A DNA stretch of 34,832 bases from Bacteroidaceae bacterium (GTDB lineage: Bacteria > Bacteroidota > Bacteroidia > Bacteroidales > Bacteroidaceae), in assembly GCA_017453465.1 (NCBI GenBank), contig JAFTEV010000016.1:1-34832 (forward strand). Reading direction: 5' to 3'. Numbering within the stretch: position 1 is the stretch's first letter; every line of letters starts with the position of its first letter. Made by a program: the position numbers and the translations under genes. Shown one piece after another: positions 1,985 through 21,326 of the stretch. The notes beneath the pieces were generated by a model that was not told the DNA's origin, did no database searches, and saw only the letters and a list, made by a program, of their open reading frames with translations.

Positions 1985-2016
1985 TTTGGCTGTTTCGGAA
2001 AACAGTCGTAACTTTA
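1985..2016 (+). promoter_or_regulatory. Bacteroidetes-type promoter for the gene at 2052
   Basis: A TTTG -33 box (1985-1988), a spacer of exactly 20 nt, and TAACTTTA (2009-2016), one base off the TAnnTTTG -7 consensus. The predicted leader to the ATG at 2052 is about 30 nt. Confidence 0.6.
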
Positions 2017-2051
2017 CCGCAATTATGGACTTAACTAACCACATTACACAC

Positions 2052-5387: not shown

Positions 5388-6754
5388 AACGAACATTAAC
5401 CATCCTGATGGCGTTTGCACTGTTGCAGACGCCATCATTTGCCAAGAAAAAAGAAGTGAAAGACCTCTGGCCCGACGGCACGGAAATTAGCCAGTGGTTC
5501 AAGGACACCACCCACGTGGACCTTGCCAAACTGGGCAAGCAGTACCGCATCACAGACTACGGCGTGGTGAACGACGGACGCATCCACACGAAGGAACTGC
5601 AAGCCCTCATCGACAAGGTGGCACAGCAGGGCGGCGGTGTGATTGTAGTGCCCGAAGGCACGTACCTCACCGGCGCAGTGTTCTTCAAGCAGGGCGTACA
5701 CCTGCACCTCTATGCCGGCGGCACACTCATGGGCAGCAACGACCCCATTGACTACCCCGTGCAGAACACCCGCATCGAGGGCGAAACCTGCAAGTATTAC
5801 TCGGCCCTCATCAATGCCGACGGGCTGGACGGCTTCACCATCTCCGGACGTGGAGCCATCGACGGCAACGGCTACACGTTCTGGAAACACTTCTGGGACC
5901 GCCGCTCATGGAATCCCAAGTGTACCAACAAGGACGAGCAACGCCCTCGCCTGGTCTATGTATCGAACTGCAAGAACGTGCAGATTGAGGGCGTACACCT
6001 GCAGAACTCGCCCTTCTGGACTACACATATTTATAATAGTGAGAACGTGAAACTGCTGCGCCTCCACATCTATTCGCCCGCCAAGCCCGTGAAAGCCCCT
6101 TCGACTGATGCCATTGACCTCGACGTGGTCAGGAACATCCTGGTGAAGGACTGCTACATGTCGGTCAACGACGATGCCGTGGCCATGAAGGGCGGCAAGG
6201 GACCCTATGCCGATGCGTTCCGCACAAAGTACGACGGCATTGACCTCTCGAAGTTCCCCGAAATGCAGGGCGATGGCGGCAACGAGAATGTCATCATCGA
6301 GGACTGCGAATACGGCTTCTGCCACGGCTGCCTCACGCTCGGTTCCGAGAGCGTATATGACCACAACATCATCCTGCGCCGCATCAAGGTGGACGAAGCC
6401 AACAACCTGCTCTGGCTGAAGATGCGCCCCGACACGCCGCAACGCTATGAGTACATCACCGTGGAAGACATCACGGGCAACGCCAAGAACTTCATCCTCG
6501 TGGCTCCGTGGACACAGTTCTACGACCTGAAAGGACGCGAGAGCACACCCATGTCGTACTCCGACCACATCACCATGCGTAACATACAGTTTGACTGCAA
6601 CGTGTTCTTCAACGTCACGCCCAAGCCCGACCAGTACCGCTTAAGCAACTTCACCTTCGAGAACCTCAATGTGACGGCATGGAAAGAAGAATTACACACG
6701 GAATACGTCGATAATTTCACCGTCAAGAATGTCACTGCAACAAAAAAACAGTAG
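5384..6754 (+). CDS. Glycoside hydrolase family 28 (polygalacturonase-like)
   Basis: 456 residues with a signal peptide ending near residue 20, then a right-handed beta-helix, the GH28 fold that hydrolyses pectin backbones (galacturonan or rhamnogalacturonan). Catalytic landmarks can be placed: S240-T-D242, a variant of the usual NTD; N-D263-D264; C-H314-G, where GHG is usual; and K346 in a Trp-Leu-Lys-Met-Arg-Pro stretch, where RIK is usual. The three acidic residues, the His and the Lys are all kept, so it should be active. The substituted neighbours place it outside classical endo-polygalacturonases, perhaps among exo-acting Bacteroidetes types. Start and upstream stop share ATGA, so it is coupled to the dockerin protein. 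Exact substrate not determinable. Confidence 0.9.
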   Translation: MKRTLTILMAFALLQTPSFAKKKEVKDLWPDGTEISQWFKDTTHVDLAKLGKQYRITDYGVVNDGRIHTKELQALIDKVAQQGGGVIVVPEGTYLTGAVFFKQGVHLHLYAGGTLMGSNDPIDYPVQNTRIEGETCKYYSALINADGLDGFTISGRGAIDGNGYTFWKHFWDRRSWNPKCTNKDEQRPRLVYVSNCKNVQIEGVHLQNSPFWTTHIYNSENVKLLRLHIYSPAKPVKAPSTDAIDLDVVRNILVKDCYMSVNDDAVAMKGGKGPYADAFRTKYDGIDLSKFPEMQGDGGNENVIIEDCEYGFCHGCLTLGSESVYDHNIILRRIKVDEANNLLWLKMRPDTPQRYEYITVEDITGNAKNFILVAPWTQFYDLKGRESTPMSYSDHITMRNIQFDCNVFFNVTPKPDQYRLSNFTFENLNVTAWKEELHTEYVDNFTVKNVTATKKQ

Positions 6755-6816: not shown

Positions 6817-7119
6817 ATGACTATCAACATCACTACAGAAAACGATACCGTAACAGGCGTACTGGATGGTCGCCTCGACACGGCTGCTGCGGCGCAGTTC
6901 GCACAAGACATGAAACCCCTGTATGACAACGCTGACAAACACATCATGCTTGATTGCGAGAAACTTTCATTCATCAGCAGTTCTGGTCTGCGACTGCTTC
7001 TCAGTCTGCGCAAGGCCACAATAGAAGGTGGAGGCGACGTAACCATCCTGAATGTCCCGCCCGAAGTAAAGCAGGTCTTCACCATTACGGGATTCTATTC
7101 ACTCTTCAAATTCCAATAG
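6817..7119 (+). CDS. STAS-domain anti-sigma factor antagonist (SpoIIAA/RsbV-like)
   Basis: A 100-residue single STAS domain. Proteins of this family bind a serine kinase/anti-sigma factor in their unphosphorylated form and are switched off when that kinase phosphorylates one serine. The signature F-I-S-S-S-G-L-R covers residues 52-59; by alignment with SpoIIAA Ser58 the phosphosite should be Ser55. It is first in a row with an RsbW-like ATPase and a second STAS protein and has its own promoter. The remaining question is what is controlled: no sigma factor gene is visible in the window. Confidence 0.88.
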   Translation: MTINITTENDTVTGVLDGRLDTAAAAQFAQDMKPLYDNADKHIMLDCEKLSFISSSGLRLLLSLRKATIEGGGDVTILNVPPEVKQVFTITGFYSLFKFQ

Positions 7120-7228
7120 TCCCCACACTGCGAACCAGAGGGTGAAGCAAGACAACATGCACCATTTGCCTTGCTTACACCCTGTTTTCTTTTGTATTCC
7201 CCCAACATCCCCAAACAGTCCTGACACC

Positions 7229-7648
7229 ATGGAAAAGCAACTGACGCTCCAGAACAAAATAGAGCAAATCTCTCTGCTGGTAGATTTTGTGAACCAGATA
7301 TGTGAAGAGCTACACCTGGATGAAGCCTTGAATTTTAATCTGAACCTCGTACTGGAAGAGGCTGTCACCAATGTCATCATGTATGCCTACCCGCAAGACG
7401 AAGCGCACACACTGACACTGAAAGCATGGACAGAAGAAGGCGGAAAGCTGGCCTTTGAGCTGTGCGACCAGGGAAAGCCCTTCAACCCCATCGAGGAAGC
7501 CCCCGAAGTGGACACGACACTCAGTGCGGAAGAAAGGCAAATCGGTGGCCTCGGCATTTTCCTCATCAAGCAAATGATGGACGAAGTGAACTACGAGTAC
7601 AAAGACCACTCAAACGTGCTCACCTTGAAAAAGAACATCAACTCATAA
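7229..7648 (+). CDS. RsbW/SpoIIAB-like serine kinase, anti-sigma type (HATPase_c_2)
   Basis: 139 residues from the ATG at 7229. An upstream in-frame ATG at 7142 would add a Pro/Cys/His-rich leader unlike the family, so 7229 is preferred. GHKL ATP-binding boxes are visible: N box LEEAVTNVIMYAY, G1 box CDQGKPFNP, and G2 box GGLGIFLIKQMMDEV. Such proteins bind and phosphorylate STAS antagonists and can hold a sigma factor or another output protein. It lies between two STAS genes (gap to the second 21 nt), so both are likely substrates. No PP2C/SpoIIE phosphatase, the usual reset enzyme, is encoded within the window. Confidence 0.88.
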   Translation: MEKQLTLQNKIEQISLLVDFVNQICEELHLDEALNFNLNLVLEEAVTNVIMYAYPQDEAHTLTLKAWTEEGGKLAFELCDQGKPFNPIEEAPEVDTTLSAEERQIGGLGIFLIKQMMDEVNYEYKDHSNVLTLKKNINS

Positions 7649-7669: not shown

Positions 7670-7945
7670 ATGAAAACAGTTTACATTGATGGACCACTCG
7701 ATGCCGTCCATCTGGAAGAAGTAAAAGAGAAGATTGCCGAAGCACAAGCACAAGTGGGCGACATCATCACGCTCGACTGCACCGAAATGTCATACATCTG
7801 CAGCTCTGGCCTGAGAGTATTCCTGCAAATGCACAAAGATGTGACAGCTGCCGGTGGCAAGCTCATCATCAAGGGACTGCAACCACTCGTGAAGAATGTC
7901 TTCAATATGACAGGATTCGCACAGGTGCTTAACATCGAGGAATAA
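7670..7945 (+). CDS. Second STAS-domain antagonist protein
   Basis: A 91-residue single STAS domain with the signature Y-I-C-S-S-G-L-R at residues 42-49; the predicted phosphoserine is Ser45. It differs clearly from the first STAS protein, so it is probably not a recent duplicate and may respond to another input or partner. It lies 21 nt after the RsbW-like gene and 47 nt before the SLC13 carrier, in the same direction, consistent with one transcript. Confidence 0.87.
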   Translation: MKTVYIDGPLDAVHLEEVKEKIAEAQAQVGDIITLDCTEMSYICSSGLRVFLQMHKDVTAAGGKLIIKGLQPLVKNVFNMTGFAQVLNIEE

Positions 7946-7992: not shown

Positions 7993-9756
7993 ATGCTATT
8001 TAGTTTGAGCCTATTTGCGTGGATAACCATCGCCATCATTGCAGCCAAGGTAGCCATCATGCTGAGAAGCAAGTTGCCAGGCGACATGCTGGCCCTTGGC
8101 ATCATTACCACACTGCTGCTTACCGGCACGCTCACACAGGACGAAGCCTTGTCGTGCTTCAGTTCACCCACGGTGATTATCGTGGGCGTGTTGTTTGTAT
8201 TAGGAGCCGGCATGGTGCATTCAGGCGTAATCCACTTGATTTCAAGGAATCTTGGCAATCCCAAGACACTGAAAATAGCCATCCTCAACCTCATGGTGCC
8301 AGTGACGCTCCTGAGTGCATTCCTCAACAGCTACACAATCATTTCCCTGTTTATCAATGTGGTGAGAGTGTGGAGCAAAAAGATTAAAATTCCCCTCTCA
8401 CAACTGCTCATTCCGCTGAGCTATGCCTCCACGCTGGGCGGTATCTGCACCATCATCGGCACACCCACCAACCTGCTCGTGGCAAACTTCTACGAAACGG
8501 GCACGGGTAAAGACATGAGATTCTTTGCCCCGCTCATTCCGGGTCTGGCCTGTGTTGTAGCAGGCACATTGCTGACCATCCTGCTGCGCCGACTGTTGCC
8601 CGTGCGCAAGTCGCCCGAAGAATCCTTCGAGAGCAGCAAGAACTACACCGTGGAACTGCTGGTCCCCACCGACTGCGACCGCATTGGCATGACGGTGGAA
8701 GAGGCCAAACTGCTCAACGTAACGGGTGGCCACCTGATTGAAATCGTGCGTTTCGACCGCGAAATCATTAGCCCGGTGCCCAACGACGAATTTATCCTTG
8801 GCGGCGACCGTCTGGTCTATACCGGAAAAATAGAAGACATCCTGCAACTGCGCGTCACCCACGGGCTGGTGAATGCAGCCCACCACGTGTTCAGCGTGAA
8901 CGAACTGGACAAGAACCGCAAGCTGCAAATGGCCAACGTGAGCATGAACAGCAGCCTGGCTGGGCAGTGCATGGCCAACTGCGATTTTGAAGAGAAACAC
9001 GGAGTCGTGCTGATTGCCGTGGCACGCGAGGGCGAGCGCATCAATGAAATTCCCCGCGAAACCATCATCCAACCCGGCGACACACTGCTCTTCGAGGGCA
9101 CCAAGATGAACCCCAACGAACTATCGGACGACCTACATTTCTTCGACCAGATAGCCCTGCCGCAACAGGGGCAGAAAACCTACGTCAGCATGTTGATACT
9201 CCTGGCCATGGTCGTGCTCTCTGGTTCCAATGTGATGACACTGCTCAACAGCGCACTGCTGGCAGCCGTTGCCATGCTCGTCACGCACTGTTGCTCCGTC
9301 GAGCAGATGCAACGCTCCATCAACTGGAAACTCATCATGGTCTTCGCGGGCAGCGTCTGCCTGGGAAAAGCCATCGACGCAACGGGCCTGTCGCACACGC
9401 TGGGCGAAATCGTGACAATCGCATCGGGCACCAATCCCCTGCTGGCACTCATCATCATCTGCCTCTTTGCCACTACCATCACGGAGTTCATCTCCAACAC
9501 CACGGCGGCTGCGGTGCTCATCCCCATTGCGCTCGACATCGCCCATGTGATGAATGCCAACCCCATGACATTCGCCATAGCCCTCATGATCAGCGTATCG
9601 TCCAGCTTTGCTACCCCCATCGGCAGCGAGGCAAACATCATGATTTACGGCTCTGGCGGCTATAAGTTCACCGACTTCATGAAGATTGGCCTGCCCATGA
9701 ACCTCGTCATCCTGGCCACCAATCTGCTGGTCACCTGTTTGGTCTATCCCTTGTAA
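7993..9756 (+). CDS. SLC13/DASS-type ion-coupled anion carrier with two RCK_C (TrkA_C) domains
   Basis: 587 residues in the inner membrane. About five N-terminal membrane segments (residues 1-205) include the substrate-loop sequence IIGTPTNLLV. Two cytosolic TrkA_C/RCK_C domains follow (about 215-285 and 305-375), and then a second membrane half with the carrier signature SNTTAAAVLIPIA and a matching ATPIGSEANIMIYG loop. The family imports sulfate or dicarboxylates with Na+. The central RCK_C pair is typical of the YfbS-like branch and points to control by a small ligand. It follows the STAS/RsbW trio and precedes another RCK_C carrier. Substrate unknown. Confidence 0.87.
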   Translation: MLFSLSLFAWITIAIIAAKVAIMLRSKLPGDMLALGIITTLLLTGTLTQDEALSCFSSPTVIIVGVLFVLGAGMVHSGVIHLISRNLGNPKTLKIAILNLMVPVTLLSAFLNSYTIISLFINVVRVWSKKIKIPLSQLLIPLSYASTLGGICTIIGTPTNLLVANFYETGTGKDMRFFAPLIPGLACVVAGTLLTILLRRLLPVRKSPEESFESSKNYTVELLVPTDCDRIGMTVEEAKLLNVTGGHLIEIVRFDREIISPVPNDEFILGGDRLVYTGKIEDILQLRVTHGLVNAAHHVFSVNELDKNRKLQMANVSMNSSLAGQCMANCDFEEKHGVVLIAVAREGERINEIPRETIIQPGDTLLFEGTKMNPNELSDDLHFFDQIALPQQGQKTYVSMLILLAMVVLSGSNVMTLLNSALLAAVAMLVTHCCSVEQMQRSINWKLIMVFAGSVCLGKAIDATGLSHTLGEIVTIASGTNPLLALIIICLFATTITEFISNTTAAAVLIPIALDIAHVMNANPMTFAIALMISVSSSFATPIGSEANIMIYGSGGYKFTDFMKIGLPMNLVILATNLLVTCLVYPL

Positions 9757-9786
9757 CTCGAAAACAACAAAATTCAAACCTATAAT

Positions 9787-11508
9787 ATGCAGTGGTTGAT
9801 TGATTTACTAATGACTGGCGGCGGCGTTGCGCACACCGTCGTACTCTACTCCATCGTCATCGCCCTGGGCGTGGCACTGGGCAGCAAAGTGAAAATTGCT
9901 GGCATCTCGCTCGGCGTTACGTGGATTCTCTTCGTGGGCATCTTGGCTGGCGACCTGCTCATGCGCGGCGGTGTGGAGGAAAACACTGCGGTGCTCAACT
10001 TCGTGCAGGACTTCGGACTCATCCTCTTCGTCTTCTCCATCGGCTTGCAGGTAGGTCCCTCATTCTTCTCCTCCCTCAAGCAGGGCGGACTGAAAGCCAA
10101 CGGCGTGGCAGCCGGCATTGTGGCACTGAACATCGTGGTCATGCTCACGCTCTACTACAGCTGCCGCAACTTCATCCCCGCAGCCGACAACCTGCCCATG
10201 ATGGTGGGCACCCTGTGCGGTGCCATTACAAACACACCCGGCCTTGGTGCCGCCAACGCCGCGCTGGACCAGATTAACGCCGTCAGCCCGAACATCTTCG
10301 GCGAAGACGGCATCCCAGTCATTGCCAACGGCTACGCCTGTGCCTACCCGCTCGGCGTTGTGGGCATCATCCTGAGCATAGTGCTCATCCGCGTCTTCTT
10401 CAAGGTAAACTTCAAGGCCGAAGAAGACCACTTCAACAAGAAGAACGGCAAGAATGAGGCCGTAAAGCCCCACCTGATGACCATCAAGGTGTTCAACCCC
10501 GCCATCAACGGAAAGACCATCCTGCAGGTGCGCGGTTTCATCGGGCGCGACTTCGTGTGCTCCCGCCTGCTCCATAATGGCCACATCACCGTGCCCAACA
10601 AGGACACCCTGCTCACCGTGGACGACAAGCTCTACATCGTCTGTGCGCACGACGACGCAGAAGCCATCATCGCCTTCATCGGACCCGAAACCGAGGTGGA
10701 CTGGGAAATTCAGGACGTGACAATGGCATCCAAGAAACTCACCGTCACCAAGAGCAGCATCAACGGCAAGACCCTGGGCTCGCTCCACTCCAGCAGCATC
10801 TACGGCGTGAACGTGACGCGCATCTACCGCTCCGGCATCGAACTCTTCGCCAGCCCCAGCGTCATCCTGCAGGTGGGCGACATCATCACCACCGTGGGTC
10901 CGGAGGACTCCGTGGACCGCTTTGCCAACAAGATAGGTGACTCGAAACAGGCTCTCGACAAGCCCAACCTGCTCACCCTCTTCGTCGGCATCCTGGTGGG
11001 CATCATCTTCGGCATGATTCCCATCTCCATCCCCGGCATGTCGGTGCCCGTGAAGCTCGGTCTGGCCGGTGGCCCGCTCATCATCGCCATCTGTCTGGGA
11101 CGCTTTGGCTACAAACTGAAGCTCGTGGCCTACACCACCAACTCCGCATCGCTCATGATTCGAGACATCGGCCTCGTCCTCTTCCTGGCCAGTGTGGGCA
11201 TCAAGGCAGGCGGCAACTTTGTCGATACCGTCATTAACGGCGGCTACCACTACGTGTGGATGGGCTTCCTCATCACCGTCATTCCGCTCATCGCGATGGG
11301 CATCTTCGCCCGCGCCAAGTGGAGGATGAACTACTTCCTCATTTCGGGCATCATGGCCGGAGCCACTACCGACCCGCCAGCACTGGCCTTCTCTACGGCG
11401 CAGGCCAACAACGGCATCCCGTCCGTAGGCTACTCCACGGTCTATCCACTCTCCATGTTCCTCCGCATCATCACCGCGCAGGTGCTCATCCTGTTCTTCT
11501 GCGGATAA
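9787..11508 (+). CDS. AspT/YidE-type carrier with two RCK_C domains (AAE family)
   Basis: 573 residues built as a duplication. Each half has about five to six membrane segments of the YidE/YbjL type. The first half carries TLCGAITNTPGLGAAN; the second carries MAGATTDPPALAFSTAQANN near the C-terminus. Between them (about 225-385) sit two TrkA_C/RCK_C domains. The founding member AspT exchanges aspartate for alanine, but most relatives, including this Bacteroidetes type, have no known substrate. It lies 30 nt behind the SLC13 gene and 9 nt before the CcdA/ArsG-like gene, so a shared transcript is likely. Two neighbouring carriers with the same regulatory domain suggest a shared signal (inference). 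Confidence 0.87.
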   Translation: MQWLIDLLMTGGGVAHTVVLYSIVIALGVALGSKVKIAGISLGVTWILFVGILAGDLLMRGGVEENTAVLNFVQDFGLILFVFSIGLQVGPSFFSSLKQGGLKANGVAAGIVALNIVVMLTLYYSCRNFIPAADNLPMMVGTLCGAITNTPGLGAANAALDQINAVSPNIFGEDGIPVIANGYACAYPLGVVGIILSIVLIRVFFKVNFKAEEDHFNKKNGKNEAVKPHLMTIKVFNPAINGKTILQVRGFIGRDFVCSRLLHNGHITVPNKDTLLTVDDKLYIVCAHDDAEAIIAFIGPETEVDWEIQDVTMASKKLTVTKSSINGKTLGSLHSSSIYGVNVTRIYRSGIELFASPSVILQVGDIITTVGPEDSVDRFANKIGDSKQALDKPNLLTLFVGILVGIIFGMIPISIPGMSVPVKLGLAGGPLIIAICLGRFGYKLKLVAYTTNSASLMIRDIGLVLFLASVGIKAGGNFVDTVINGGYHYVWMGFLITVIPLIAMGIFARAKWRMNYFLISGIMAGATTDPPALAFSTAQANNGIPSVGYSTVYPLSMFLRIITAQVLILFFCG

Positions 11509-11517
11509 AACAGACTT

Positions 11518-12216
11518 ATGAACCTCTTTCAACTCATAAACTCACTGACGCAGTCAACAGACCTTCCGCTGTTGACTGCCTTTTTCCTGGGTCTGCTCGT
11601 CGCACTCAACCCCTGCCAGCTGGCCATCAACGTGTCGGCACTGACCTACATTCTGAAACACGACAAGGCTCGCAGTGCGTCGCTCACCTACGCCATGGGC
11701 CGCTCCGCCACCTACACCCTACTGGGCTGGACACTGATGTGCCTCATCGGGGGCGGTCAGAACGTGGAGGGCGTACAGCAGCTGCTCAGCCAGGCCGAAG
11801 TGCTGCTGCCCTACATCCTCATCGCCATTGGCCTCTTCATGCTCTCCCGCTCCTTCCATGCCCACCATCACGACGGCGAGAGCTGTCACCACTCCGGGCA
11901 AATCATTCGCCGCAACGGACCCCTCGGTTCGCTCATCCTCGGCATGACCCTCGCTCTGGCCTTCTGTCCCGAAAGTGCCGTGTTCTACTTTGGGCTGATG
12001 CTCCCGCTCTCCATGACCAGCAGTGCCGGGCTGCTCGTTCCCCTCGTCTTCGCCCTGGCCGCCAGCCTGCCCGTCCTTGGGTTGGCATGGCTCATGGCAA
12101 AAGCCACACAGAAGGCAGAGCAAGTGAGCCACGCCTTCGAGCACGCCCAGCAGTGGCTCAATGCCCTCACGGGGCTTCTGTTCATCGCTGCCGGCATACT
12201 CCTGTTCTGGGAATAA
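11518..12216 (+). CDS. CcdA/TauE-like membrane protein (ArsG-like permease)
   Basis: 232 residues with about six membrane segments. Two cysteine-proline-type motifs, L-N-P-C-Q near residue 37 and F-C-P-E-S near residue 152, fall at the paired positions of CcdA-fold proteins, which carry reducing power or export thiol-reactive compounds across the inner membrane. A loop at about residues 118-131 is His-rich (H-A-H-H-H-D-G-E-S-C-H-H) and could bind a metal. Many Bacteroidetes relatives are labelled aromatic-arsenical efflux permease ArsG or sulfite exporter. No ars genes are present here, so arsenic export is only one option beside disulfide relay. It starts 9 nt after the AspT-like gene. Confidence 0.75.
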   Translation: MNLFQLINSLTQSTDLPLLTAFFLGLLVALNPCQLAINVSALTYILKHDKARSASLTYAMGRSATYTLLGWTLMCLIGGGQNVEGVQQLLSQAEVLLPYILIAIGLFMLSRSFHAHHHDGESCHHSGQIIRRNGPLGSLILGMTLALAFCPESAVFYFGLMLPLSMTSSAGLLVPLVFALAASLPVLGLAWLMAKATQKAEQVSHAFEHAQQWLNALTGLLFIAAGILLFWE

Positions 12217-12410: not shown

Positions 12411-13469
12411 TTACATCTCCTTCACGATGTAAATCTGTGTGGGGAAGTGGTCGCTGTAGCCATCCTGCCAGATGCCTGCGCTGGTGGTGCGGCGGGGTGC
12501 GCCCGTGTAGCGGCCTTCGACCGTGGTCATGTATTCAGGCATGTAGATTTCGTTCTTGAAGAACTTGAAGTCCGAGCGGTCATCACCCAGCATGTTGGCA
12601 GTGAAGATTATCTGGTCGAAGAGGTTCCACATGTTGTCGTAGAGCAAGGTGCCCTGCCCCTTTTTGCGCAATATATCGTTCCAGGGGTCGTAGAGGTCCT
12701 GCGGACTTGTGATTTTCTTCTTGGAGAGCTTGGCCCCCAGTGCCTCGGTGACCGACTTGTTGTCGGGGTCGTCGTTGAGGTCGCCCATGATGACAATCTT
12801 GGCATTTGGCTGCACGGCCTGAATGGAATCGACCACGCCACGGACTATGCGGGCAATGAACTCGCGGCTCTCGCTGGATGCGGCACGCGAGGGCCAGTGG
12901 TTCACGAGGAAATGGAACTGCTCGCCCAGCAGACTGCCCTCAACGTGGAAGATGCCGCGTGTGATGTGTCCGTCACTGAATTTCTTGTAAGCCTCGGTTG
13001 TGGAAATCAGTTCGCTCTTCCGTGGCTTAAACATCTTGGGGTTATAGAGGCATGCCACGTCCACGCCGCGTGCGTCATCTCCCTCAATATGAAGGAACTT
13101 ATATCCCTTGTCTGCAAGCTTTGGTTGAGCCACCAGGTCGCGCAGCGCATTGGCGTTTTCCACCTCCGACACGCCGATGAATGCTGCCCCACCCTTGACG
13201 CGCTCTGTGCAGAGTTCGCTCAGCACTCGCGAGAGCTTCTCCAGCTTGCGCTTGTACTTCATTCCGTCCCAGTGGTAAGAGCCGTCGGGCAGGAACTCGT
13301 AGTCGTTCTTGCCCTCGTCGTGCAGGGTGTCGAAAAGGTTCTCAAGATTGTAGAATGCAATGCCCGCATAGATGGTGCGCTTCTGGGGCTGTCCGCCCAC
13401 ATCGGGAGTGGCCGACATCAGCGCAAATCCCAACAATGCGACACAAACGGATAACAAAGTTTTTTTCAT
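12411..13469 (-). CDS. Secreted endonuclease/exonuclease/phosphatase (EEP) family protein
   Basis: 352 residues with an N-terminal signal peptide (MKKTLLSVCVALLGFALMSA), hence periplasmic or exported. The EEP (DNase I-like) fold is shown by F-Y-N-L-E-N-L-F near residue 40, S-E-V-E-N with the metal-binding Glu, N-H-W-P-S with the catalytic His, G-D-L-N-D-D with the catalytic Asp/Asn, and S-D-H-F-P near the C-terminus. All the usual catalytic positions are present. The family includes DNases and phosphodiesterases. It is transcribed divergently from the TonB-receptor operon across a 168-nt region, and that operon also encodes a nuclease, so it most likely attacks nucleic acid outside the cytoplasm. 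Phosphodiesterase activity on another substrate remains possible. Confidence 0.88.
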   Translation of the reverse strand: MKKTLLSVCVALLGFALMSATPDVGGQPQKRTIYAGIAFYNLENLFDTLHDEGKNDYEFLPDGSYHWDGMKYKRKLEKLSRVLSELCTERVKGGAAFIGVSEVENANALRDLVAQPKLADKGYKFLHIEGDDARGVDVACLYNPKMFKPRKSELISTTEAYKKFSDGHITRGIFHVEGSLLGEQFHFLVNHWPSRAASSESREFIARIVRGVVDSIQAVQPNAKIVIMGDLNDDPDNKSVTEALGAKLSKKKITSPQDLYDPWNDILRKKGQGTLLYDNMWNLFDQIIFTANMLGDDRSDFKFFKNEIYMPEYMTTVEGRYTGAPRRTTSAGIWQDGYSDHFPTQIYIVKEM

Positions 13470-13594
13470 GGTAAAATGCTGTTTGTAGTTATTGATAGCG
13501 CAAATATCTTAAAAAAAATTGGTATTTCACTTATATTTCCATGTAAAATTCATCTTTTTTACAGAAAGAAGCCTCAGTTCACCAAGTTTTTTAT

Positions 13595-13602
13595 TAAATT
13601 TG
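13595..13602 (+). promoter_or_regulatory. -7 box for the TonB-receptor operon
   Basis: TAAATTTG fits TAnnTTTG, 36 nt before the ATG at 13638. No clear TTTG lies at the expected -33 distance. On the other strand a weaker box (complement of 13501-13508, one mismatch) could serve the divergent EEP gene. The whole spacer 13470-13637 is AT-rich. Confidence 0.5.
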
Positions 13603-13637
13603 TGCCCAAATAGACAAAATAAACAAAAACCATCACT

Positions 13638-16325
13638 ATGAGTAAAGGCTTTATAATTCTTACGGCAGCCCTGTGCGTAGCTTCTCACGGAATGGCTCAG
13701 AACGTGGTTCTGGCCGACTCCATCGCTGGCGAGGACGACTTCGACTTCTCGCTGACCGAGGGGCAAATTGACGAGGACGCAGAAGCTGCCAGTACCGTCA
13801 CACTGGTACAAAGCTCAAAAGACCCGTACTTGAATGAAATTGGCTACAAGTGGTCGGCCATGCGATTTAAATACCGCTCGCTCGACAACGCCTACGTGGG
13901 CAATTACATCAACGGAATCAAATTTAACAATGTGGAGAACGGACGCTTCAGCTTCTCTGGCATCACGGGCGGACTGAACGACGCCACCCGCAACAAGACG
14001 GGCGGCGGATTCCTGGACCAGTGCAAGTTTGGCTACTCACCCCTGGGCGGAGCCACCGACATTGACATCCGCGCCAGCCACTATGCCGCTGGCCACAAGG
14101 TGGGACTGGCCCTGACCAACCGCAACTATGTGGTGCGCGGACTCTACACCTATGCCACGGGCCTGATGAAGAGTGGCTGGGCACTGATGGGCAGCTTTGG
14201 CTACCGCTACTCAAAGGAGGGCAACATCGAGGGAACCTTCTACAACAGCTTCTCCTTCATGCTCGGAGCCGAAAAGCAATGGGACAAGCACAGCCTCTCG
14301 TTCAACATCTGGGGCGCACCCACCGAGCGCGGACAGCAGGGAGCATCCACCGAGGAAGCCTACTCGCTGGCTGGCACACACTTCTACAACCCCTATTGGG
14401 GCTACCAGAACGGCAAGAAGCGCAACAGCCGCGTAGTCACCGAGTTCTCGCCCAGTGCCCTGATTACGTGGGACTGGAAAATCAACGACGACACCAAGCT
14501 CTCCACCTCGGCAGCAGCCACGTGGATGAACTACGCCAGCACAGCCCTATCCTACAACAACGCCTACAACCCGCGACCCGACTACTACAAGAACCTGCCC
14601 TCGGCAGTCTTCAACGTCTATAACGATGCCTACAACGACGGCGGATGGCTCAGCGAGAACCCCGGCGTGATGGAGCAGTACCGCAACCTCTACGACTACT
14701 GGACCAGCTCGAAGTACAACCGCCAAGTGAAGTGGGACCAGATGTACGCCCAGAACGAGGCCAACAACGCCACCGGCAAAGATGCGCTCTACTACCTGGA
14801 AAAGCGTCACAACAACCAGCTGGCCTTTAACCTCAGCTCCATACTGAACGGCAAGTTCGGCACCCACGGAGCCTACACCCTGGGACTCAACGTCAACAGC
14901 ACCAAGGGTATGCACTACAAGACCATGGCAGACCTGCTGGGCGCAAGCACATTCCACGACTACGACAACTACTCACTGAACAAGTACGGCTCGCAGTCCA
15001 AGGAATACCAGAACGACCTCGACAATCCCGACCGCATCATCCGCAAGGGCGACAAGTTTGGCTACAACTATAATATATATGTAAACAAGGTGAAGGGCTT
15101 CTTCAACAATACCTGGAAGACGGGCGGCTTCACCCTCTCCTACAGCGGAGACATCGAGGGCACATGGATAGAACGCGAGGGCCTCATGCGCAACGGACGC
15201 GCAGCCAACTACTCGAAGGGCCGCAGCGGAGCAGCCAAGTTCCTGGGCGGCGGCGGCAAACTGATGCTCTCCCAGAAGATAGCTACCTCAGTGCTCTACG
15301 TGGGCGGTAGCATCGAGAGCCAAGCCCCCCTTGCCTACAACGCATTCGTGGCTCCGCGCATCAACAACAATTTCGTGGACAACCTGAAGAACGAATGGTA
15401 CTGGAACGCAGAGGCCGGCTACCAGTGGTACTTCGGCCCCGTCAGCGGTAAGGTTGCAGCCTACTACACACGCTTCAACAACGTCACCCAGCAGACAGCC
15501 TTCTACAACGACGACGCATCCTACCTCACCTACATCAGCATGACTGGCATACAGAAGGAATACAAGGGTCTGGAGGCAGCCATCACCGTGAAGCTGGTGG
15601 GCAACCTGAAGCTCAACCTCTTCGGCACACTGGCCGACGCCAAGTACCTGAACAACCCCAACGCGCAGCTGGCCTACGAAGGCTCCGACGCAGCCACCAT
15701 CAAGAGCATCAACGCCTTTGAAAACAAGGTGACAGGCGGCAACAACCCGCTGCAAGTGTTCATGAAGAACGTCAAGGTAGAGACCACACCGCTCACAGCA
15801 GCCACCGTGGGACTCAGCTACAACGTCAGCGGCTGGTATTTCGATGTGAACCTGAACTACTTCGACCGACTCTACATCTCGGCCTCACCCTACCGCCGCC
15901 TCAGCAACTCTGCCGAATGTGGCGTGACGGGCTATGCCAGCGACTACCAGTCCATCAATGTCAACACAGGCACAGTGACCGATGCCTACGGCGCAGCACA
16001 AGCCATGGCCGCCAGCGGACACGCTGCCTACGTCTATGATGCACAGACGGGCGAAGTGCTCGAAGGCTACTCGCCCGACCAGGAGAAGGCCAAAGGCGGA
16101 TTCATGCTGGATGCCAGCATCGGCAAGAGCATCTACCTGTCGGGCGGCAAGCGACTCAGCATCAACCTGCAAGTGCAGAACATCACCAACAACACCAACA
16201 TGAAGACAGGTGGCTATGAGCAGAACCGCGCCGACCGTCCCTACGACTACATCTTCTCGCGCAACAACTTCTACTACTACGCCAATGCCATCAACGCATT
16301 CCTCAACGTCAGTCTTAAATTCTAA
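13638..16325 (+). CDS. TonB-dependent outer-membrane receptor
   Basis: 895 residues with a signal peptide cleaved after about residue 20 (...ASHGMAQ). A plug domain follows (about 50-160; YVGNYINGIKFNN and the ITGGLNDATRNKTGG stretch), then a long barrel ending in Leu-Lys-Phe, the aromatic end expected of outer-membrane barrels. There is no carboxypeptidase-like N-terminal domain and no partner SusD, so this is not a standard polysaccharide-utilization receptor. The sequence closely resembles Bacteroidetes receptors found with DUF5689 lipoproteins. The next gene is 8 nt away and encodes exactly such a protein. With nucleases on both sides, oligonucleotides or nucleosides are the best cargo guess (inference). 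Confidence 0.9.
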   Translation: MSKGFIILTAALCVASHGMAQNVVLADSIAGEDDFDFSLTEGQIDEDAEAASTVTLVQSSKDPYLNEIGYKWSAMRFKYRSLDNAYVGNYINGIKFNNVENGRFSFSGITGGLNDATRNKTGGGFLDQCKFGYSPLGGATDIDIRASHYAAGHKVGLALTNRNYVVRGLYTYATGLMKSGWALMGSFGYRYSKEGNIEGTFYNSFSFMLGAEKQWDKHSLSFNIWGAPTERGQQGASTEEAYSLAGTHFYNPYWGYQNGKKRNSRVVTEFSPSALITWDWKINDDTKLSTSAAATWMNYASTALSYNNAYNPRPDYYKNLPSAVFNVYNDAYNDGGWLSENPGVMEQYRNLYDYWTSSKYNRQVKWDQMYAQNEANNATGKDALYYLEKRHNNQLAFNLSSILNGKFGTHGAYTLGLNVNSTKGMHYKTMADLLGASTFHDYDNYSLNKYGSQSKEYQNDLDNPDRIIRKGDKFGYNYNIYVNKVKGFFNNTWKTGGFTLSYSGDIEGTWIEREGLMRNGRAANYSKGRSGAAKFLGGGGKLMLSQKIATSVLYVGGSIESQAPLAYNAFVAPRINNNFVDNLKNEWYWNAEAGYQWYFGPVSGKVAAYYTRFNNVTQQTAFYNDDASYLTYISMTGIQKEYKGLEAAITVKLVGNLKLNLFGTLADAKYLNNPNAQLAYEGSDAATIKSINAFENKVTGGNNPLQVFMKNVKVETTPLTAATVGLSYNVSGWYFDVNLNYFDRLYISASPYRRLSNSAECGVTGYASDYQSINVNTGTVTDAYGAAQAMAASGHAAYVYDAQTGEVLEGYSPDQEKAKGGFMLDASIGKSIYLSGGKRLSINLQVQNITNNTNMKTGGYEQNRADRPYDYIFSRNNFYYYANAINAFLNVSLKF

Positions 16326-16333
16326 CCCGCACT

Positions 16334-17194
16334 ATGAAGAAATTACTATTCACCATACTTGCAGGAATGCTCGTAGCCTCCTGCATGAACAAATGGGACA
16401 CCGAATCGGTTGACAACGACCTCTACTCGGCCCCGAACATCGGCGAACCTACCACTACCATCCAGCAACTGCGCTCCACCTATGCCTCGGCCATCAGCAA
16501 CTCCAGCTACACGCAGGTGACAAAGGACGAAGTGGTGGAAGGCATCGTCACAGCCAACGACATCTCTGGCAACATCTACCAGTTCATCTACATCCAGCCC
16601 CTGGCAGCCGACGGCACGCTCGACACCTCGGAAGGCGGCATTGGCGTAGGCATTAAGGGCATAGGCTGTCTCTACACGCTCTACCCCGTAGGCCAGCGCA
16701 TCCGCATCAGCCTCAAAGACCTCTACGTGGGCGGCTACGGACAGGCACCCCGCATCGGTATGCCCTACATCAACACCAACGGAGCCATGCGCATGGGCCC
16801 CATGACCCTCGACATGATGAAGAAACACGTGCAGAAAGTGGGCAAACCACGTCCTGAACTCGTGGAGGCACGCGAAGTGACCGCTGCCGACCTCACCGCT
16901 GCTAACATCACCAAGCTCACCCCCATGCTCGTGGTACTGAAGAACGCCGAAATCAAAGACGCTGGCTGGCCCTACGCACACTGGGAAGTAGGCGGCGACA
17001 CCTATTCGGAGTATCACGACATCAACATTGGCGGCACCACCGTGAAGCAGCTGCTCTACACCAGCACCTCGGCCACCTTTGCCGGCGACACCATCCAGCC
17101 CGGACGGAAGACCATCTACGGACTCCTGGGCCGCTACTCCAGCAGCTACCAGCTCTCACTCCGCTCAATCGACGACATTATTGAACAGAAATAA
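16334..17194 (+). CDS. DUF5689-type surface lipoprotein
   Basis: 286 residues. The lipoprotein signal ends at C17 (V-A-S-C), so it is membrane-anchored and probably displayed beside the receptor. The body (about 55-280) matches what I recall as DUF5689: a repeated beta pattern starting at D-E-V-V-E-G-I-V-T-A-N-D, reminiscent of OB-folds. The OB-fold reading is from the strand pattern, not a search. It lies between the receptor (8-nt gap) and a second lipoprotein gene (14-nt gap). It probably takes the cargo-binding role that SusD plays in sugar systems, but no binding residue can be named. Confidence 0.82.
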   Translation: MKKLLFTILAGMLVASCMNKWDTESVDNDLYSAPNIGEPTTTIQQLRSTYASAISNSSYTQVTKDEVVEGIVTANDISGNIYQFIYIQPLAADGTLDTSEGGIGVGIKGIGCLYTLYPVGQRIRISLKDLYVGGYGQAPRIGMPYINTNGAMRMGPMTLDMMKKHVQKVGKPRPELVEAREVTAADLTAANITKLTPMLVVLKNAEIKDAGWPYAHWEVGGDTYSEYHDINIGGTTVKQLLYTSTSATFAGDTIQPGRKTIYGLLGRYSSSYQLSLRSIDDIIEQK

Positions 17195-17208
17195 ATACAC
17201 ATAGAACT

Positions 17209-19125
17209 ATGAAGAAAATACAATCACTCCTGCTCATCGCAGCAACCAGCCTCGGAATACTCACATCTTGTTCCGATGTCCCCATGCCTTACGACATCAA
17301 TGCCGGAGGCTCCACTTCCTATGGAAAGCTGATGCCCTACAAGAACGCCAGCCTCTCCACCTTCACCAGCTACGACCTCATCGAGGGTTGCCCCGCATGG
17401 AGCCAAGGCTCAAGCTACACTCAGGCCACTGGCTATCAGGCTTGGGACGGTGCTTCCACCAAAAGCAACAAGGAGGTGAAATCCTACCTCATTTCGCCAC
17501 CACTCAACACCACCTGCGCCAGCGGCAAAGTGCGCTTCTCGTTTGACCAGACACTGCGCTACAGCAACAACGTCAGCACCTGGAAAGAGAACCACAAAAT
17601 CTACATCTCGAAAGACTTCGACGGAAATGCCAAGAACTTCGACCAGGCTACATGGACACTGATCGACTTCACCCCCGAAGCCTCTACCTACAGCGACTGG
17701 ACCCTCTACAGCAGCGGCTACATACAGGTGCCCGACGAATTTGTCAACTACGACGGAGTCTATATCGCCTTCTACTTCTACGCTCCCGCTTCAGCCTCGA
17801 CCACATGGGAACTCGAAAACTTCCTCATCGAAGAGGGCGTAGCTGACAACAGCGGCCAAGGCGGTGACAACACACCCGAATCTGTAGGCACAAAGGAAGC
17901 CCCTCTCAGCGTGGCAGATGCCAAGAACAAGGTGGGCAGCACTGGCTACGTCACAGGCTACATCGTTGGCTACGTTGACGGACAGAAGCTGGAAGATGGT
18001 GCGAAGTTTGAACCCGCCACAGAGTCACAGACAGAACTCCTGCTGGCCGATACACCCAACGAAACCAACCCTGCTAACACACTGCCCGTGCAGCTGCCAG
18101 TCGGTGCACTCCGCGACGCACTCAACCCATCGCTTGCCAACAACATCGGCCAGAAGGTCACACTCTACGGCTCCTTCGAGAACTATTTCGGTGTGCCAGG
18201 CATGAAGTCAACCACCTGGGCCGAAATGAACGGACAGACCTACGGCAAAGACCCCGATGCAACAGAAGAAATCGTCGGCACACCAACGGGTACAGGCACA
18301 CAGGAAGACCCATTCAACGTGGCCGCCGTCTATGCCTTTGCAGCAGCCGGAAACTACTCTAACAGCAACCCCTCGAAGGAAGTCTATGTGAAGGGCATCG
18401 TTTCGCAAGTGGCCGACCTCAACACCAAATACAACGAGCTGAACTACTACATCTCCGACGATGGCACTACGGCAGGTCAGTTCTATGTCTATAACGGCTA
18501 TGGACTCAACGGAGAAGCCATCAATTCGACCGAGTATCTGAAGGTGGGCGATGTCGTGCTCATCTGCGGAAAAATTACTACATACAACGGCACGCATGAG
18601 TTCACCTACGGCAGCAAAATCATCTCGCTCAACGGCAATGGAGAAGGCGGCGGCGACACACCGAACCCACCGGCCCCGACTGGCAACTGGACACGCGAAG
18701 CCGACACAGGTTTTGTCAACTTCATCAACACCCTGCGCACAGCCAGCAACCGAACCACTACCCTCGTACTGGCCGACCTGCAGCTGGAGAACGCACAAGA
18801 GCCTGGCATACTCTACTTCCCCGACCAGACTGAACTCTCCTTCGAGGCTGGCAGCAACAAGAACGCGCCCAAATACTACACCGCAAGCAACGGCGTGCGC
18901 GTCTATGCCAACAACAACGTCATCATCAAGGCCAACTCACCTATCGCCCGGATTGAAATGGAGTGCGACGTTTATACTGCACAGGACGGCAAGCAAACCA
19001 GCTACGTGGGCAACAGCACCACAACCATAGCTGAGGAAAACAACACCATAACCATTTGCAACGCAGCCCCCGATGCAGGTACACAGCTCCGCATCAAGGT
19101 CATTACCATCACTTATGCTGAATAA
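17209..19125 (+). CDS. Large surface lipoprotein: choice-of-anchor J plus OB-fold-like domains
   Basis: 638 residues with a lipobox at C21 (L-T-S-C). Domain order by eye: a choice-of-anchor J-like jelly roll (about 35-210); an OB-like domain beginning G-T-K-E-A-P-L-S-V-A-D-A (about 225-350, resembling DUF6359); a second OB-like domain beginning G-T-Q-E-D-P-F-N-V-A-A-V (about 364-480); a Gly/Pro linker; and a C-terminal beta-sandwich (about 495-638). The two OB-like units share the opening pattern G-T-x-E-x-P and are probably a divergent duplication. OB-folds bind nucleic acids in many proteins, including the YhcR extracellular nuclease. It lies directly before the NucA-type nuclease gene, with an 11-nt overlap. 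Confidence 0.82.
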   Translation: MKKIQSLLLIAATSLGILTSCSDVPMPYDINAGGSTSYGKLMPYKNASLSTFTSYDLIEGCPAWSQGSSYTQATGYQAWDGASTKSNKEVKSYLISPPLNTTCASGKVRFSFDQTLRYSNNVSTWKENHKIYISKDFDGNAKNFDQATWTLIDFTPEASTYSDWTLYSSGYIQVPDEFVNYDGVYIAFYFYAPASASTTWELENFLIEEGVADNSGQGGDNTPESVGTKEAPLSVADAKNKVGSTGYVTGYIVGYVDGQKLEDGAKFEPATESQTELLLADTPNETNPANTLPVQLPVGALRDALNPSLANNIGQKVTLYGSFENYFGVPGMKSTTWAEMNGQTYGKDPDATEEIVGTPTGTGTQEDPFNVAAVYAFAAAGNYSNSNPSKEVYVKGIVSQVADLNTKYNELNYYISDDGTTAGQFYVYNGYGLNGEAINSTEYLKVGDVVLICGKITTYNGTHEFTYGSKIISLNGNGEGGGDTPNPPAPTGNWTREADTGFVNFINTLRTASNRTTTLVLADLQLENAQEPGILYFPDQTELSFEAGSNKNAPKYYTASNGVRVYANNNVIIKANSPIARIEMECDVYTAQDGKQTSYVGNSTTTIAEENNTITICNAAPDAGTQLRIKVITITYAE

Positions 19126-20110
19126 TAACAAAACCTTATCCATGGTGGCACTCATTATGCTGAGTGCCACCATTTTGCTCTCTTGCGGCAAGGACGACAC
19201 CAACACAGGCAACAGCCAGCCCTCTGGCAACGGCGGTAGCAGCGGTGGCGGCAGCAGCCATTACTCAGCCGACAACCGCAATGCCAACACCAACACTGGC
19301 GACTCCTCCGTCGAGGGCTACGAAATTCCACGGCTCAACCCACACTACGACTACATTTGCCACCGTCTCACGGGCGGCGATGTCAACTTCTGCCTGGAGT
19401 ACGACAAAGACCAAATGCACCCCCGCTGGGTGGCCTACACCTACACCACCAAGAACGCCCAGAAAAATGCGCCCACACGCACCGATGCCTGGAGTCCCGA
19501 ACCCTTCTACGACGCACAGAAGCAATACCAGTTGGCCACAGGCACCTTCCCCGGCTATACCCGTGGCCACCTCGTGGGCAGTGCCGAGCGATACTACTCC
19601 ACCGAGGCCAACGAGCAGACCTTCTACATGAGCAACATGTCGCCACAACTCTTCGCCTTCAACAGCGACTACTGGGGCGAAATCGAAGACAAGGCACGCG
19701 ACATCTGGGGACGTGGAGTCATCGACCAGCGGTCCAGCTTCTACGGCGGCACACTCTACATCGTCAAGGGCGGAGCCACCCACCGCGAAGACTACATCCT
19801 GGAGCGCATCAACGTGAAGAACACTCTGGGCCAGACCGTGAAGATGGTCGTGCCCCGCTACTACTTCATGGCCTGCCTCTTCATCTCCACCTCCGGCGAA
19901 GCCAAAGCCATCGGCTTCTGGATGGAACACAAAGACTACCACCTCAACACCAAGGACTCTGCAGCCATGCAGAACCTACGCCGCTCAGCCGTCCGCACCA
20001 TCGACGAACTCGAACAGCTCACCGGCCTCGACTTCTTCTGCAACCTCACCGACGTTGTGGAGGATGCCGTAGAGTCCAAATACGACCTTGCCGCCTGGCC
20101 TGGTCTATAA
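19115..20110 (+). CDS. DNA/RNA non-specific endonuclease (NucA/Serratia type), lipoprotein
   Basis: 331 residues from the ATG at 19115, which overlaps the previous stop by 11 nt. This start gives a lipoprotein signal with Lys6 and the lipobox L-L-S-C24; the later ATG at 19142 lacks a basic N-region and earlier ones run further into the previous gene. A Gly/Ser-rich tether (about 35-55) leads to the beta-beta-alpha-metal nuclease domain. The catalytic motif reads T149-R-G-H152, where DRGH is typical; His152 is the general base. N174 in S-N-M-S-P-Q is the metal ligand position. Such enzymes cut DNA and RNA of any sequence to short oligonucleotides. Anchored at the surface, it would feed the operon's receptor. 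Confidence 0.9.
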   Translation: MLNNNKTLSMVALIMLSATILLSCGKDDTNTGNSQPSGNGGSSGGGSSHYSADNRNANTNTGDSSVEGYEIPRLNPHYDYICHRLTGGDVNFCLEYDKDQMHPRWVAYTYTTKNAQKNAPTRTDAWSPEPFYDAQKQYQLATGTFPGYTRGHLVGSAERYYSTEANEQTFYMSNMSPQLFAFNSDYWGEIEDKARDIWGRGVIDQRSSFYGGTLYIVKGGATHREDYILERINVKNTLGQTVKMVVPRYYFMACLFISTSGEAKAIGFWMEHKDYHLNTKDSAAMQNLRRSAVRTIDELEQLTGLDFFCNLTDVVEDAVESKYDLAAWPGL

Positions 20111-20126
20111 AACCCACATTTTGAAT

Positions 20127-21326
20127 ATGAACATCGACATCCGACAAGACTGCAACGGCATGACCCTCATGCTTGCAGGACGGCTCGACACTGCGACTGC
20201 GACACAGGCCAGTGCAGCCATTGACCAAGCACTGACAACGACTGCCAGCGGCACAGACTGCCGCCTGACGTGCGATGCAGAACAGCTGGAATACATCTCC
20301 AGTTCGGGACTGCGCATACTGCTCAGCCTGGCACGACGCTACAAGGATTTCCGCATCGTCGAGGCACAGCCAGCGGTGTATGAGGTGCTGGAAACTACGG
20401 GCTTCACAAAGATGATGGCGGTGGAGCGTGCCCTGCGACGACTGAGCGTGGAGGGCTGCCAGGTCATCGGTGTGGGAGGTGTCGGCACGGTCTATCGACT
20501 GGACGGCGACACTATCATCAAGGTGTTTCGTGAGGGGACAACACTCGACGAGGTGCGCCGCGAAATCAACATGTCGAAGGAGGCTTTTGTGCTAGGAATG
20601 CCCACAGCCATCTCTTTCGATGTGGTGCGCGTGGGTGAACAGTTTGGCCTGGTCTATGAACTGCTGGAGGCCGACACACTGAGTGCGTGCATTGCGCGTG
20701 AGCCGGAGCGCATCGACGAGTTTGCCAAGAAGTATGCCGACCTGTTCCGCCAAATGCACGACATCGAGGTGCCACAAGGGGGCGGTGTGCCCTGCGCCAT
20801 GGAGCGGGAGATGCAGCAGATTCGCCATATACGTCGCTACTTTCCGCAGGAAAGCATTGACCTGATGCTGCACATCGTGGATGCCATCCCAGAGGCGAAC
20901 CGCCTACTCCATCTGGATTTGCAGACAAAGAACGCCATGGTGCAAAACGGCGAACTGATGCTGATTGACATGGGCGAAGTGGGCTACGGCCATCCGATGC
21001 TCGACCTGGGCCATGCCTATTCGGCCATGGTGACGCTGGTGGGCGACTACGACCAAATCATCGGGAAGCCCCGTCAGCAGGGAATGGACCTGTGGCAACG
21101 TGCCATCGACTACTATCTGGAAGGACTGCCTACCGAAGTTGCAGCACAGCGCAAGGCACAGATTGAAGTGGTGTCGTGTGTGCGCAATTTCAGCTGGCTC
21201 GCACTGTCCGACTCCTTCCCTGAGGCTGTTATCAATACGTGCAAGAATCTTTTTGATGAACGTATCGGACGGCGGAAGGATTACATCCTGGATGTCTGCA
21301 AGACGTTCAAGGAATGGACTGCGTAA
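20127..21326 (+). CDS. STAS domain fused to an aminoglycoside-phosphotransferase-fold kinase
   Basis: 399 residues, cytoplasmic. The ATG at 20127 is chosen over an upstream start inside the previous gene because it begins at the STAS fold. Residues 1-105 are a STAS domain with Y-I-S-S-S-G-L-R (56-63); predicted phosphoserine Ser59. Residues about 110-399 are a choline-kinase/APH-like kinase: nucleotide loop G-V-G-G-V-G-T-V-Y, Lys in I-I-K-V-F, catalytic loop H262-L-D264-L-Q-T-K-N269, and D281-M-G in place of DFG. It recalls the TIGR02172 phosphotransferase family. It starts 16 nt after the nuclease gene, so it may be the last gene of that operon. The substrate could be a nucleoside, a sugar or a protein; antibiotic resistance is unlikely from context. 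Confidence 0.85.
   Translation: MNIDIRQDCNGMTLMLAGRLDTATATQASAAIDQALTTTASGTDCRLTCDAEQLEYISSSGLRILLSLARRYKDFRIVEAQPAVYEVLETTGFTKMMAVERALRRLSVEGCQVIGVGGVGTVYRLDGDTIIKVFREGTTLDEVRREINMSKEAFVLGMPTAISFDVVRVGEQFGLVYELLEADTLSACIAREPERIDEFAKKYADLFRQMHDIEVPQGGGVPCAMEREMQQIRHIRRYFPQESIDLMLHIVDAIPEANRLLHLDLQTKNAMVQNGELMLIDMGEVGYGHPMLDLGHAYSAMVTLVGDYDQIIGKPRQQGMDLWQRAIDYYLEGLPTEVAAQRKAQIEVVSCVRNFSWLALSDSFPEAVINTCKNLFDERIGRRKDYILDVCKTFKEWTA

Follow-up and report, generated by a model that had tools for sequence, protein, structure and literature searches.

The stretch analysed here, 34,832 nucleotides long and hereafter called the window, is one contig (JAFTEV010000016.1; C79 in our numbering) of the assembly GCA_017453465.1 of a Prevotella-like bacterium (G000; 3.16 Mb, 108 contigs). 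It carries the genes of a predicted outer-membrane module in which a TonB-dependent-type receptor and surface lipoproteins are accompanied by two nucleases (Table 1). On the forward strand the receptor, the DUF5689 lipoprotein, a second lipoprotein, a nuclease of the NUC family and a STAS-kinase fusion follow one another with exact gaps of 8, 14, -11 and 16 nt between their open reading frames, and an EEP nuclease is encoded divergently. Open reading frame calls and Pfam matches bore out this gene list, its coordinates and its gaps as given in a preliminary description of the locus. Lipoboxes and the EEP signal peptide were assigned by reading of the sequence, family-wide counts being made for EEP and NUC.

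Table 1 Features of the predicted outer-membrane module and the adjoining STAS-kinase gene in the window.
Feature	Coordinates	Strand	Evidence and remarks
EEP nuclease (Exo_endo_phos_3)	12411..13469	-	PF19580 E=1e-93; signal peptide; divergent from receptor
Divergent intergenic region	13470..13637	.	between EEP and receptor
TonB-dependent-type receptor, divergent, 895 aa	13638..16325	+	plug-like N terminus, C-terminal Phe
DUF5689 lipoprotein	16334..17194	+	PF18942 E=2e-46; lipobox VASC/M
Second lipoprotein (anchor domain, DUF6359, OB-fold)	17209..19125	+	PF19886 E=2e-27; lipobox LTSC/S
NUC, DNA/RNA non-specific endonuclease, surface-type lipoprotein	19115..20110	+	PF01223 E=5e-38; lipobox LLSC/GKDD
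STAS-kinase fusion	20127..21326	+	STAS_2 + APH (Pfam); TIGR02172 E=1e-33, below model cut-off

The locus had also been described as lacking SusD, and this held: no protein of the unit matched a SusD family in Pfam, nor did Pfam reveal a carbohydrate-active enzyme among them. An ordinary SusC-like locus for polysaccharide or glycoprotein uptake, with the nucleases as incidental neighbours, is suggested by an operon that combines a TonB-type receptor with lipoproteins. A polysaccharide locus was nevertheless ruled out because the unit contains neither SusD nor glycan enzymes, and the SusC-like explanation as a whole is extremely improbable given that the adjacency of nucleases recurs across families and in four of the eight paralog regions presented below. 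The STAS-kinase had been counted as part of the operon. It does follow NUC in the same orientation at a distance of 16 nt. Since it was absent from all other loci searched (L007-L106 and L117-L216), however, it does not belong to the conserved unit and was rejected as a member of the module.

Ahead of the receptor, the divergent intergenic region contains a Bacteroidetes-type -7 box, TAAATTTG, at 13595-13602. Of 62 intergenic regions, that of the window among them, 41 showed the Bacteroidetes -7 consensus TAnnTTTG on the receptor strand, compared with a mean of 8.4 and a maximum of 14 when this strand was subjected to 50 mononucleotide shuffles; the opposite strand, to which the shuffle comparison did not extend, showed it in 34 of the 62.

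At E ≤ 0.01 the window receptor matched no Pfam family, Plug included, and CarboxypepD_reg, an accessory domain that we did not treat as defining, was likewise absent from it by Pfam. Among its relatives, CarboxypepD_reg scored over the Pfam cut-off in the receptors of L118, L069, L077, L035, L094 and L103, whereas Plug exceeded it in L094 and L060, gave a weak match in L089, L103, L007, L044 and L035, and was not matched in L118, L069 and L077. To judge by these relatives, the window receptor appears to be a very divergent TonB-type protein; it shares 26% identity over 884 aa with the receptor of L118 (E=1e-63), a locus discussed below. When the receptor, the DUF5689 protein and the OB-fold lipoprotein were each searched singly against the sequences of solved structures, no match was obtained up to E=1.

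In other bacterial families a single lipoprotein of ~450 aa combines DUF5689 with a further domain at its C terminus; in the window's lineage a domain homologous to this C-terminal one forms the N-terminal part of the second lipoprotein, with DUF6359 and an OB-fold added. Positions 37-198 of the second-lipoprotein profile align to residues ~280-455 of the fused DUF5689 proteins with E-values of about 1e-33 to 1e-48; Pfam DUF5017 was unmatched in the window protein, and the profile gave no match in L118 at E 1e-4. The window DUF5689 protein matched the NCBIfam model lipo_M949_1556 with E=5e-17, far under the model cut-off, and aligned with the L118 DUF5689 protein at 30% identity over 164 aa (E=1e-11). 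The alignments A2, A3 and A4 comprised the window protein with 66, 58 and 62 further proteins out of 78, 71 and 78 eligible ones. In the second-lipoprotein family (A3) the OB-fold PF01336 was detected in 30 of 59 members at E ≤ 0.01 and DUF6359 in 25 of 59, and two of 63 DUF5689 proteins matched an OB family. The second lipoprotein had been described as carrying two OB-folds: OB-folds are indeed present in the family by sequence, but the second one in the window copy (E=0.007) falls below the Pfam cut-off. Searching solved structures with the A2 and A3 profiles returned nothing better than E 0.036; a nucleic-acid-binding lipoprotein, 3f1z, was among the matches with E=0.31 and was not counted as evidence.

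The nucleases retain conserved motifs throughout their families. Among 162 EEP homologs, GD[LFMW]N was found in 162, SDHxP in 158 and N.EN in 157 (104 by a stricter pattern); N.EN, GD.N and SDH.P are presumably the active-site motifs. The window EEP is related to that of L118 (E=3e-59), and a sequence search of solved structures with it gave no match up to E=0.1. Because it has a plain signal peptide without lipobox or Pfam sorting domain, and as only 15 of the 162 homologs show the lipobox pattern, the EEP nuclease is at least as likely to be periplasmic as secreted, and we predict a periplasmic location in place of its earlier designation as a secreted enzyme. NUC is related to the Anabaena nuclease 2o3b (E=5e-16). 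Its longest open reading frame starts earlier than the one tabulated, at 19073. The columns for the His, both Asn and the Glu are conserved in all 91 homologs, the window protein among them; presumably as in NucA, the His is catalytic and Asn binds Mg. In the DRGH motif of the window protein a Thr replaces the first Asp. The lipobox pattern was present in 68 of 90 NUC homologs.

To describe the conservation of the locus, two sets of regions were assembled. The first contained 100 regions, namely those of every DUF5689-positive genome of the family besides the window's own (62) and 38 from the phylum taken roughly by score, and was searched with profiles for which the window genes served as seeds; since these regions were chosen by DUF5689, their DUF5689 counts are given by construction. 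The second came from a search with the receptor only and comprised the best 80 of at least 582 confirmed loci, eight of the 80 repeating first-set loci. Relatives found by the receptor included Bacteroidaceae, Prevotellaceae, Prevotella, Paraprevotella, Alloprevotella, Segatella and similar taxa; Paraprevotella clara (L153), a commensal, is one bearer of the module. Receptors scoring at least 570 bits were treated as orthologs, a threshold placed by visual inspection where the scores show a break (the next, a partial, had 429).

DUF5689 was present in 63 of 121 family genomes and 80 of 158 phylum genomes, and an ortholog-level receptor in 61 of the 121, all 61 with DUF5689. Presence of the two genes agreed in 119 of the 121 (62 with both, one receptor being partial, and 57 with neither), the irregular genomes being G177 with DUF5689 only, G186 with a partial receptor and DUF5689, and G199 with a partial receptor and no DUF5689. 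In the family regions of the first set, the receptor was followed by DUF5689 in 60 of 62 (L040 and L087 were without receptor). In 54 of these 60, EEP and the receptor were no more than 7 kb apart, and EEP was divergent in 40 of the 57 with room upstream; NUC was found within 8 kb of the receptor in 44, and an OB/anchor lipoprotein was encoded downstream in 50. Receptors were found in 24 of the 38 regions outside the family, those of L060 and L063 being only distantly related, and all 24 had DUF5689 downstream. EEP was divergent in 15 of these 24, nine of the 24 had no EEP within 7 kb, and NUC was found within 8 kb in none.

In the receptor-based set, DUF5689 was the next gene in 77 of 79 loci by a strict rule that L137 and L143 fail through overlap of open reading frames, and the OB/anchor profile matched downstream in 67 of 67. 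EEP was divergent in 62 of 71 loci with enough upstream sequence, or 60 by a strict rule from which L181 and L215 deviate only by overlap of the EEP and receptor frames; in L149 and L167 EEP is located downstream. NUC was found within 6.5 kb in 34 of 53. The conserved unit thus consists of the receptor followed by the DUF5689 lipoprotein, usually with EEP nearby, to which the window's family mostly adds the anchor/OB-fold lipoprotein and often the surface NUC. The gene set of the preliminary description therefore recurs widely, and the possibility it raised, that such receptors regularly occur without nuclease genes, is not borne out in the family and is partly borne out outside it (9 of 24). 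These distributions also bear on a role in clearance or defence, in which the nucleases would rid the cell surface of extracellular DNA while the receptor had some other function. The surface-type lipobox pattern of most NUC homologs is in keeping with such a role; it is very improbable, however, as the receptor and DUF5689 are the constant genes and NUC the optional one, and as EEP is predicted to be periplasmic.

Of the 58 family genomes that lack DUF5689, 13 have a paralogous receptor (106-216 bits, compared with at least 570 for orthologs), as do some of those in which DUF5689 is present. In L225, L227 and L228 this receptor is followed by an OB/anchor-type lipoprotein and NUC, and in L229 it is accompanied by a DUF5017 lipoprotein and an EEP nuclease. 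In L226, L237 and L238 a lipoprotein was present and no nuclease was found adjoining, and L230 had neither. Since four of the eight regions have a nuclease beside the lipoprotein, partnership with nucleases is recurrent, but not universal, in this group of receptors.

The receptor/DUF5689 pairing had been regarded as having no proven cargo, which overlooks homologs in Riemerella anatipestifer. According to a study of natural transformation in that species (PMC8459023), RA0C_RS04915, an outer-membrane protein with a CarboxypepD domain, is encoded adjacent to RA0C_RS04920 (DUF5689 and DUF5017), and markerless deletion of either gene abolishes transformation (limit ~4e-10, wild type ~5e-5). By locus tag, ComEC (RS04895) and RecA (RS04870) lie close by. 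The same study presents DNA binding and import by RS04915 and RS04920 as a speculative model for Riemerella, and places RS04915 homologs in Flavobacteriaceae only, yet calls homologs of the four new proteins widespread in Bacteroidetes. The lipo_M949_1556 model is named after an R. anatipestifer gene, as stated in PMC12566107; it scored over its cut-off in 20 of 80 genomes of family f4 (presumed Weeksellaceae), and the L118 DUF5689 protein reached 599 bits, above the cut-off. Locus L118 has the order ComEC, a 145-aa protein, a 542-aa protein, EEP, a receptor with CarboxypepD_reg and a DUF5689+DUF5017 protein, which fits the tags RS04895, 04900, 04905, 04910, 04915 and 04920 one for one. From this gene order and the domains we infer that L118 is R. 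anatipestifer and that its receptor is probably RA0C_RS04915; RS04910 would therefore be the EEP nuclease, and the sections of PMC8459023 consulted describe no deletion of it. RA0C_RS04915 and RA0C_RS04920 are the closest characterised relatives of the window receptor and DUF5689 protein.

Competence genes were found near the receptor in a few of the 21 loci of the presumed Weeksellaceae (L049 and L100 included), with DprA in three, of which two belong to one genus and one to another, and ComEC in one. In the window genome, ComEC and DprA are encoded elsewhere. ComEC, DprA and HHH_3 do not discriminate genomes with the module from those without, because all three are near universal in the family, and their co-occurrence with the module was discarded as uninformative. 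The best HHH_3 matches were mostly proteins of 700 aa or more rather than ComEA, and these are presumably Tex. Short ComEC frames similar to that of the window genome were also noted in genus g95. Matches with identical scores on contig pairs (EEP_3 on C12/C92, ComEC on C83/C89) probably reflect redundant assembly (contamination 6%).

Taken together, we consider it probable, though by no means assured, that the genes encode an outer-membrane module for capturing, cutting and importing DNA, most simply toward ComEC, and not a nutrient locus of the polysaccharide type. The capture, cutting and import of nucleic acid proposed in the preliminary description is hence kept as the best reading, but DNA uptake toward ComEC, and not food, becomes its first candidate because the R. 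anatipestifer homologs are essential for transformation. The sequences establish the gene content and its conserved order, the homology to the Riemerella pair, OB-fold families among the lipoproteins, intact nuclease motifs and the presence of ComEC and DprA in the genome. From these we infer that DNA is the cargo, that the barrel is the channel, that both nucleases take part and that the DNA taken up serves transformation and not nutrition alone. In the proposed sequence of events, the DUF5689 lipoprotein and the anchor/OB-fold lipoprotein would bind DNA at the surface beside the receptor, and surface NUC would nick or cut long DNA to give ends. The receptor barrel may then pass the DNA into the periplasm, where EEP could act on the incoming molecule before ComEC takes one strand into the cytoplasm. 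That the receptor is energised by TonB is a guess on our part.

The neighbours of the unit bear on a nutritional alternative. The next most widespread genes in the neighbour census encode a uridine-kinase-family protein (35 loci), a 196-aa protein without annotation (27 loci) and a histidine-phosphatase-family protein (22 loci), all three on the EEP side in Prevotella-type loci. The uridine-kinase-family and 196-aa genes lie on the EEP strand, ~1.8-3 kb upstream of the receptor (L171-L215 and others). The uridine-kinase- and histidine-phosphatase-family genes would suit a system that scavenges nucleic acid for phosphorus or nucleosides. In such a system surface NUC would cut DNA or RNA, oligonucleotides bound by the OB lipoproteins would enter through the receptor, and periplasmic EEP would break them down to nucleotides for salvage, the part played in Riemerella transformation being one use of a general importer. 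The intact motifs of both nucleases, the resemblance of a TonB-type receptor with surface lipoproteins to nutrient uptake systems and the addition of NUC and OB parts within the window's family, with NUC found in none of the 24 receptor regions outside, point the same way. We nevertheless regard scavenging as rather unlikely. The sole tested homologs are essential for transformation (PMC8459023), the uridine-kinase and histidine-phosphatase neighbours were seen only in Prevotella-type loci, and the ten widespread neighbour families that were annotated (two without match) included neither a nucleotidase nor a transporter whose name refers to nucleosides.

A number of observations weigh against DNA uptake toward ComEC as the function of the module. 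Two nucleases could destroy transforming DNA, and the uridine-kinase- and histidine-phosphatase-family genes near EEP fit scavenging. Identity to the tested receptor and DUF5689 protein is only 26-30%, the function proposed for Bacteroidales being a prediction. Linkage to ComEC or DprA is limited to four of 21 loci of one family and was not found at the other surveyed loci, and ComEC (119 of 121 family genomes), DprA (119 of 121) and HHH_3 (121 of 121) are too nearly universal to discriminate. The ComEC frame of the window genome (C83, C89) has 422 aa, compared with ~700 aa in many relatives. The window's own genus is mostly without the module, which was found in two of 11 genomes; DUF5689 was present without receptor in 14 of the 38 regions outside the family and was also matched in a Bacillus subtilis control. 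Flavobacterium johnsoniae has homologs of the Riemerella genes, yet was not competent in the published assay (PMC8459023). In R. anatipestifer, tonBA and tonBB mutations lower transformation, but the authors put the effect of tonBB down to poor iron use (PMC8383284).

Several other features of the window were noted. Two small STAS open reading frames (6817-7119 and 7670-7945) flank an RsbW-like HATPase (7142-7648), and it is possible that these genes and the STAS-kinase form a partner-switching set split around the module. At 1986-6754, a GH28 enzyme comes after a large DUF5013 protein that also has a type I dockerin domain. Adjacent CitMHS- and Asp-Al_Ex-family transporters, both with TrkA_C domains, occupy 7993-11508, and an ArsG-like DsbD_2 protein (11518-12216) comes after them.

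For the passage of DNA across the outer membrane in Bacteroidales, the module offers specific candidate genes. In a study of Porphyromonas gingivalis (PMC11532111), ComEA and ComEC are essential and DNA import into the periplasm is stated to be unclear; its authors report that no type II or IV secretion system was identified and that the pilus-like structure plays no part. We tentatively suggest, as a wider idea that may well prove wrong, that Bacteroidota import DNA without a type IV pilus, via a dedicated family of TonB-type barrels that DUF5689/DUF5017/OB-fold lipoproteins load and that commonly have a nuclease as partner. The window would then hold the most elaborate version, with surface nuclease, split lipoproteins and periplasmic nuclease, and supply the missing outer-membrane step in Bacteroidales transformation. 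The role of the receptor and DUF5689 in Riemerella is already published; new here are the Bacteroidales form with its conserved order, the nuclease partners and the paralog family, of which no description was found in the open-access papers searched, preprints being outside the search. A system represented until now by two outer-membrane genes thereby gains two nucleases, a possible role emerges for DUF5689 and DUF6359, families of unknown function, and the module has a bearing on gene movement among gut bacteria.

Compared with known systems, the window is closest to the Riemerella pair: it shares a homologous receptor, a DUF5689 lipoprotein next in the same order and, as seen in L118, a divergent EEP upstream. 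It differs in having two lipoproteins in place of the single one, in the addition of DUF6359/OB domains and of NUC, and in a receptor without CarboxypepD domain; moreover, neither ComEC nor DprA was found nearby. The paralog loci L225, L227, L228 and L229 have the same kind of receptor, an anchor-type lipoprotein and either NUC or EEP, but no DUF5689 was found in them. With SusCD loci the window shares a TonB-type receptor and surface lipoproteins in an operon, nucleases standing in place of SusD and glycan enzymes. A NUC-family nuclease also serves DNA uptake in the transformation of Streptococcus pneumoniae; this enzyme, EndA, is an analogy only, being membrane-anchored in a Gram-positive organism and working with a pilus-type uptake system.

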